NCBI GenBank assembly: GCA_029573235.1
Contig: JAKQGX010000001.1
Coordinates: 1-64,000, forward strand
Length of the DNA: 64,000 nt
Direction: 5' to 3'
DNA from: Bacteroidota bacterium
Lineage (GTDB): Bacteria > Bacteroidota > Bacteroidia > Chitinophagales > Chitinophagaceae
In this document: piece after piece, positions 27,225 through 28,645 of the stretch
Layout: every line of letters begins with the position of its first letter
How positions within the stretch are numbered: position 1 is the stretch's first letter
Position numbers and translations under genes: made by a program
The notes under the pieces: generated by a model
Seen by the model: the letters and a program-made list of their open reading frames with translations, nothing else
Database searches by the model: none
Told to the model about the DNA's origin: nothing

Positions 27225-27360
27225 ACCATTAGCCGATGGTTTATCATACTATTTTGAGCAAGATACCGCAATAAAATTTTTTGCTTTGTTAATTGATGAT
27301 TGGTACCTTCCTTGTATCTCGAATTTCTTTTTCTTTTTTCTAAATTATCTCCTTACATAT

Positions 27361-27393
27361 TTTGTTTTTTTGGTGGAATAGTGTTTATCTTTA
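27361..27393 (+). promoter_or_regulatory. Candidate promoter TTTG-N21-TATCTTTA upstream of the T9SS mini-ORF
   Basis: Matches -33/-7 consensus except the last -7 base; 33 nt before the ATG at 27426. Confidence 0.5.
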
Positions 27394-27425
27394 ACCTATT
27401 CTTAACCTTTTAAACTTTCTCAAAC

Positions 27426-27706
27426 ATGCTACAAAAGCACACATTTAGAAAAATGTTATGGGGGGGGTAATTTTTAATATGTTATCCCTATCCACCCTCG
27501 CACAAGTACCTGCCACCCTGCCGGATGTATGGGTGGACCAAGTTACAACACCGGCACCTTACCACTACACCATTATGGATATGACCGGGCGGGTAATGCT
27601 GCAGGGCAGCACCCCGAGCAAGGAGATAGACATCCGCTCGCTGGGCAGTGGTACGTATTGGTTGCAAATACCCGGCACCCCCAGTCAAAAATTTTTGAAA
27701 CGCTAA
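27426..27706 (+). pseudogene. T9SS mini-protein locus interrupted by a G8 tract (leader 27426-27470 out of frame with CTD ORF 27458-27706)
   Basis: ATG 27426 reads MLQKHTFRKMLWGG-stop; the other frame carries VIFNMLSLSTLAQ...a T9SS sorting domain. +1 or -2 G restores one ORF. Confidence 0.7.
27549..27657 (+). repeat. Direct repeat copy 1 (T9SS CTD segment)
   Basis: 105/109 nt identical to 28494-28602 by manual alignment, constant offset 945. Confidence 0.95.
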
Positions 27707-27718
27707 ATAGAAGGCATC

Positions 27719-28645
27719 ATGAGAACATATATAACCATAATAGCCTTTATGCTGGCAGCCGCCGTGGCGGCTGCCCAGAGCACCCCCCTCTACAAATGCG
27801 ATACCTTCCCCCCCAGTTCCAGACTGTACGGTGGAGGGGCCATGTTAGCCTACTACCAGTTTGGCGGTTATCAGGTATTGTACCACCGTTCCGATTTTCC
27901 GAACATGCCCGCCCAGGGGGTCATCACCGACTTGTACATCCGAAATGCCTGGATGACCCCCAAGGGTGCCTACCTGCCCGGGCTGATGGTGCGGATGGGG
28001 TCGAGCCATTACTCTATGTTTCCCGCTTCTATTCCAAAGGGAGCTATGGTGCATCCCCAGTTAGATACGGTATATTACGACAGCCTCTTTGTGCTGCCGG
28101 ATACGATATGGAAGGACAGTTGGCTGCGGCTGCCGCTGCAAAAGCCCTATGCTTACAGCTTTGGCAACCCGGGTGGCGATAGTGTGCTGAGCCTGGTGGT
28201 AGAGATTACCCACGATTCGTTGGAGTATATCGACCCGGGCCAGGGATATTCTAAATGGTTTGCTACCTATAATATAGATAATCAACATGATCCGTTTAGC
28301 CTTAGCCAACGAATATTGCCTCTGAACCACCAAAAGGGAGCCTTTGGAGGTGGTCCACTGCAACTTGGTTTGTTAGTAATAGGTTTCAATCCCAAACCCG
28401 ATCCGGTGGGGGTGGCACCCTTGCCGGCTCCGGCATCGGGTGGGCAGCTCTACCCCAATCCCGCAAACGATTGGCTGCACCTTACTACCTCTGCACCGGC
28501 ACCTTACCACTATACCATTATGGATATGACCGGGCGGGTAATGCTGCAAGGCAGCACCCCGAGCAAGGCGATAGACATCCGCTCGCTGAGCAGTGGTACG
28601 TACCTCTTGCAATGCGGCAACGAAACCCACCGTTTTGTGAAGTGA
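27719..28645 (+). CDS. T9SS type A sorting domain exported protein
   Basis: Signal peptide MRTYITIIAFMLAAAVAAAQ; C-terminal LYPNPANDWLHL...GRVMLQG...SGTYLLQ...FVK. Confidence 0.85.
   Translation: MRTYITIIAFMLAAAVAAAQSTPLYKCDTFPPSSRLYGGGAMLAYYQFGGYQVLYHRSDFPNMPAQGVITDLYIRNAWMTPKGAYLPGLMVRMGSSHYSMFPASIPKGAMVHPQLDTVYYDSLFVLPDTIWKDSWLRLPLQKPYAYSFGNPGGDSVLSLVVEITHDSLEYIDPGQGYSKWFATYNIDNQHDPFSLSQRILPLNHQKGAFGGGPLQLGLLVIGFNPKPDPVGVAPLPAPASGGQLYPNPANDWLHLTTSAPAPYHYTIMDMTGRVMLQGSTPSKAIDIRSLSSGTYLLQCGNETHRFVK
28494..28602 (+). repeat. Direct repeat copy 2 (T9SS CTD segment)
   Basis: See copy 1 at 27549-27657. Confidence 0.95.

Follow-up and report, generated by a model that had tools for sequence, protein, structure and literature searches.

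The CTTCT repeats of the opa genes sit in leader codons. Each strain of Neisseria gonorrhoeae carries 11 Opa genes, each with its own CTTCT tract and an independent state (PMC5320596), and the AutB and AutA autotransporters of Neisseria meningitidis have AAGC repeats, which in AutB fall inside the signal-sequence codons; AutB is OFF in most cases, and 28-45% of isolates have AutA in phase, close to the expectation of 33% (PMC5118866). The poly-G contingency loci of Campylobacter have tracts on the coding strand that are mostly of 9 and 10, and tracts of at least 8 have been shown to switch (PMC6321876). For Bacteroides, a 2025 review describes phase variation through invertible DNA that affects capsules, glycan use and restriction-modification, and cites the genus mainly for switching of the inversion type (PMC11868660).

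The subject of this report is a run of eight G in the window (the whole stretch of 64,000 nucleotides that was analysed), and we assign a probability of about 0.86 to the reading that it is a slipped-strand contingency tract, set in the signal-peptide codons of the genes for one family of surface proteins exported by T9SS (family A). Such a switch would be like that of AutB, in that a repeat in signal-sequence codons frameshifts a surface protein ON or OFF, but AutB and AutA are tetranucleotide-repeat genes of a pathogen whose products use type V secretion, whereas family A is predicted T9SS cargo of environmental Bacteroidota, with poly-G or CA repeats and many paralogues per genome. The likeness to Opa lies in a multigene surface-protein family with one tract per copy, although the proteins are unrelated, the repeat unit is another and so is the phylum; a Pfam search detected no homology of family A to the outer-membrane beta-barrels or autotransporters of the Opa and Aut families. 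Campylobacter likewise has poly-G on the coding strand, but shares no family with these genes, and family A tracts cluster in the signal peptides of secreted proteins. Bacteroides has the phylum and the outcome of surface diversity in common with family A, but switches by site-specific inversion, where family A would switch by repeat slippage. No report of repeat-slippage switching of T9SS cargo was found in the literature searched, and the papers examined there that treat T9SS together with phase variation do not describe repeat switching of T9SS cargo.

The features of the locus are collected in Table 1. The start codon of mini-gene A (27426-27428) opens a leader that meets an in-frame TAA (27468-27470) directly after the G-tract, just where the initial annotation of this DNA had placed start, tract and stop, and the frame of the body terminates at TAA 27704-27706. 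The sequence also bears out the claim that a tract of nine or six G would fuse the leader to the downstream T9SS frame, and a tract of 12 would do the same. The promoter-like pair that had been noted before the ATG was found again as TTTG (27361-27364), a spacer of 21 nt and TATCTTTA (27386-27393), followed by 32 nt and the ATG; a box of the TAnnTTTA type lies 5' of the ATG in most of the putatively phase-variable leaders. The tract is the sole G/C run of at least 8 within the window, and an Rfam scan of the window returned tRNAs only. The T9SS sorting domain that had been read in the restored fusion holds in part: mini-gene A passes TIGR04183 with 24.9 bits (cut-off 23), but its match to PF18962 covers profile positions 22-66 of 75 at 23.5 bits, under the cut-off of 27, so that the domain is incomplete; against PF18962, full-length A on contig C17 of the same genome reaches 35.8 bits, and the score of gene B is 40.9 bits. 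By a simple rule of charge and hydrophobicity, a Sec signal peptide is predicted to be well formed only with the tract in frame. Gene B begins 12 nt after mini-gene A, with which it makes up an operon-like pair, and near the start of its mature protein it has a C7 (27808-27814) that is of the same length in the C17 copy.

Table 1. Features of the mini-gene A locus (positions in the window)
Feature	Position	Strand	Basis
5' block (promoter, leader, first mature-protein codons), in common with the C17 paralogue	27336..27546	+	alignment
Bacteroidota-type promoter-like pair TTTG-N21-TATCTTTA	27361..27393	+	sequence
Leader reading frame MLQKHTFRKMLWGG, stops at TAA as assembled (OFF)	27426..27470	+	sequence
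G8 putative switch tract; G10 in C17 copy, G8-G13 in relatives	27460..27467	+	sequence comparison
Mini-gene A body: remaining signal peptide, ~18 mature N-terminal residues, second part of T9SS type A sorting domain	27468..27706	+	PF18962/TIGR04183, C17 counterpart
Deletion junction, ~1.4 kb absent relative to full-length C17 gene	27546..27549	+	ends of alignment blocks
Gene B (308 aa), free of repeat tracts; has a signal peptide and a T9SS sorting domain of its own	27719..28645	+	PF18962, 40.9 bits

The window's own genome comprises 2.15 Mb in 43 contigs and is 81% complete, and is therefore presumably a metagenome bin. A search of it recovered, besides the window copy on contig C29, one further copy of the leader, which on contig C17 precedes a full-length gene with 542 aa after the tract. 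Positions 27336-27546 are identical to C17 in 210 of 213 columns, and the other 3 are gap columns that all fall in homopolymers (G8 against G10, T7 against T6). Both copies are out of frame, flanking the length of nine on either side. The T-run (27365-27371) lies in the promoter spacer, which is thus 21 long in the window and 20 in the C17 copy, and it is a possible second, transcriptional layer of variation. Past the junction, the rest of the sorting domain and gene B are 96% identical to C17, up to the end of that contig. Because the window gene is some 1.4 kb shorter than its C17 counterpart, and relatives have the gene at full length, it is by comparison a deletion derivative, that is, an internally deleted 'mini' of a family A member of ~545 aa, currently OFF. 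As this copy is without most of its protein, its own switching may matter little. The window gene is not the best example of the phase-variation reading.

Similar minis were found in three more species (L119, L138 and L052), making four species in total; in each of the four minis the leader and the final portion of the sorting domain are retained, and three of them are in frame through the join. These minis bear on the reading that the window gene is a plain pseudogene, the deletion remnant of a duplicated gene in which the frameshift is incidental. The missing 1.4 kb, which takes the first part of the sorting domain with it, the full-length state of the C17 paralogue, the stop codon contained in the L052 mini and the second frameshift of a full-length relative (L034) all speak for decay, but the leader and promoter of the window copy are unmutated outside homopolymers, the frame is kept through the sorting domain in those three minis of different species, and the tract is a feature of the whole family and not of local decay. 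We consider this reading unlikely, though deserving of real weight: it is true in part for the window copy, and not for family A.

Runs of at least 7 G are about as frequent as in shuffled sequence, so a G-run of such size is unremarkable alone, and its position was tested instead. As a guard against picking, all distinct runs of at least 9 G in seven genomes of the genus were scored by one fixed rule. By this rule, 20 of 50 occupy the hydrophobic beginning of a signal peptide; the count is 0 of 50 for the complementary strand, and among ordinary GG or GGG sites 53 of 1993 qualify (P = 1.6e-17, or 1e-5 with related leaders collapsed to 8 types); four more (L119, L125, L127, L150) fit the position by eye and stand outside the 20. 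Pure chance was rejected as an account of the G-run, the size of which alone fits chance while the signal-peptide position does not. Nor is a pure G-run a by-product of codon use, since in the long genes of the window GGG has the lowest share among glycine codons (12.5%), and one of 79 Gly-Gly pairs is encoded by GGG-GGG. The motif GGGGGGGGTAAT, counted 29 times in 120 genomes against about 5 in the control, was rejected as one spread across the bacterial family: its matches outside the genus are mid-gene or non-coding, with none in signal peptides. G-runs were also noted in other settings, namely two runs that keep their assembled frames, a G10 deep in an ORF exceeding 700 codons, which is a possible further slippage locus of the window's genome (L025, G000:C42:36087-36096), and a G8 that provides the Gly-Gly of a long protein of secreted type (L021, G000:C26:69288-69295), and a G18 followed by TATTTC outside a signal peptide (L132, G006:C140:30487-30504), the same tail following a G15 (L115, G004:C2).

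Homologues of family A occur in five more species of the genus. A single-protein scan of genome contigs gave no relative, but an alignment scan did recover an uncultured Taibaiella sp. (two bins), Flavipsychrobacter sp. HJP_bin8, and Bacteroidetes bacterium SZAS-27 and SZAS-28. Tracts of G8-G13 are found at codons ~9-12 of the signal peptide in G000, G001, G002, G004, G005 and G006, and six of the seven species of the genus (Chitinophagaceae-type MAGs) carry such tracts in family A and in an unrelated lipoprotein family. Nearly every family A copy with a known start has G8-G13, usually as TGG GGG GGG GTA AT (W-G-G-V), within the hydrophobic stretch of the signal peptide. Compared across relatives, as the initial annotation had suggested, the tracts are neither all G9 nor G8 with decaying flanks, and this holds family-wide. 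Near-identical leaders in one genome differ in tract (10/11/8 and 10/11/12 in G004, 10/8/9 in G006, 10/8 in the window genome), with the reservation that the genus genomes seem to be metagenome assemblies, in which near-identical copies may be mixed, a consensus tract length is reported and individual lengths may be exchanged between such copies. Family copies cluster at contig ends, and copy numbers are therefore underestimated. The three lipoprotein genes (L117, L126, L145) are 39-80% identical to one another, have no match to the family A profile, and carry a G9 in the lipoprotein signal peptide that is out of frame in all three. On this genomic evidence, the putative switch is shared by multigene family A and one or more unrelated families of lipoproteins.

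Another genus of the same bacterial family (G018, 3.0 Mb) has family A leaders with (CA)9, (CA)9, (CA)10, (CA)14 or C14. CA repeats of 15 nt or longer number eight in this genome, and every one lies in a family A leader, three of them in leader fragments at contig ends; repeats of this kind were absent from three congeners. Because the CA copies share ancestry, they count as one further origin and not as eight. G099 has a C9 in the n-region, the homologues in genera g2 and g119 are without a repeat and have an intact signal peptide, and most homologues in other genera are repeat-free with an uninterrupted signal peptide. In a different genus, a G10 lies ~40 codons into a signal-peptide gene and is out of frame as assembled (L078, G029:C236). 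That homologous genes have differing repeats at one place in the leader speaks against a bias in codon use, against a requirement for glycine, and likewise against errors of assembly and programmed frameshifting. The second of these would have the runs kept for a useful Gly-Gly in the hydrophobic core and slippery by accident, as the recurrence of W-G-G-V in the leaders might suggest, but GGG is the rarest glycine codon, homologues in other genera are without Gly-Gly there, and the CA or C repeats of another genus encode His-Thr or Pro; we hold it to be extremely improbable.

Of 32 tracts tabulated, one with a second frameshift (L034) and one with no gene body (L127) were excluded, and the remaining 30 are ON in 8 cases and OFF in 22, which is not different from one in three; lengths from 8 to 13 cover all three frames, ON included. 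Full-length OFF genes are still open for 529-580 codons, and the orthologous OFF/OFF pair L030/L031 has dN 0.014, dS 0.054 and dN/dS 0.26. The open bodies of OFF genes, together with the low dN against dS of this pair, argue that purifying selection continues to act on the bodies. A site of programmed frameshifting, ribosomal or transcriptional, that yields a constant fraction of full-length protein would account for OFF genes staying under selection, and a long G-run can make RNA polymerase or the ribosome slip; such a site needs a fixed frame relation, however, which is at odds with lengths that span all three classes, and the type of repeat differs between genera, which leaves this reading with scant probability. 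Just as improbable is that the differences in length are sequencing or assembly errors in genes that are really in frame. The assemblies are metagenomic, many tracts lie a few hundred bases from contig ends, where repeats confuse assembly, and lengths might become jumbled where two near-identical copies are mixed, but the same tract appears in assemblies by different submitters, the lengths take in all three frames, a dinucleotide repeat stands at the same place in another genus, and even if the lengths of C17 and C29 were swapped, G8 and G10 must both exist.

The slippage of a homopolymer, put forward as the mechanism in the initial annotation, is supported by the C17 paralogue, the shared block of which differs only in homopolymer length, by five related species that have the tract at these codons too, by another genus in which a CA or C repeat takes its place, and by the intact frames 3' of OFF tracts. 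As in slipped-strand loci, there is a repeat in the leader (G8-G13, C14 or (CA)9-14), its length differs from copy to copy, and both ON and OFF states occur with intact bodies. Replication slippage would alter the length of the G-tract; in one length class of three, the basic n-region, the hydrophobic core and the mature protein could be read in succession (ON), and in the remaining classes translation would end after a few codons or a few tens of them (OFF). Genes of this kind are numerous in several genomes, each with a tract of its own that would vary independently, and cells would thus show differing mixtures of surface proteins. The possible benefit of this diversity is escape from phage, predators or competitors, or a change of attachment. 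We infer from the comparison of genomes that slippage causes the differences in length, that it is reversible in living cells and that diversity is of benefit.

Gene B follows four of four minis (for L119 only the start of B is seen), and the A-B pair also occurs with full-length A, in most relatives with downstream sequence and in G018. The presence of B after every mini, together with the retained leader and sorting-domain end and, in three of the four, the frame, lends some support to another role for the minis, which may be not debris but upstream phase-variable frames, with promoter, tract, frame and stop kept in order to gate the translation of gene B, a reading that we think distinctly doubtful. 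If it were true, ribosomes on an in-frame tract would run on to a stop codon 6-12 nt ahead of B, coupling the translation of B to that of the mini, ribosomes on an out-of-frame tract would leave early and the translation of B would fall, and the slippage switch would be a two-gene control in which the first product is dispensable.

The products of the putatively switched genes are predicted to be at the surface from their sorting-domain and lipoprotein-type signals. In Pfam, family A has no domain above cut-off besides the sorting domain. AlphaFold2 on 10 sequences gave an all-beta model of low confidence (pLDDT 59.5), and many of its PDB matches are beta-propellers, but with TM-scores (by query length) of at most 0.31, so the fold is only 'perhaps propeller-like'. 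Adhesion or glycan binding is a guess at the function of the protein.

Because most copies read OFF, gene callers will miss or truncate such genes in most assemblies. Repeat-driven phase variation has been studied mostly in host-adapted pathogens, and here it would operate in environmental Bacteroidota, where it would serve T9SS cargo family-wide and also an unrelated family of lipoproteins; the phase variation known from this phylum consists mainly of DNA inversion. Homologous genes of two genera have repeats of different kinds at one and the same place, which points to selection for switchability; such selection would act outside the setting of host immunity.
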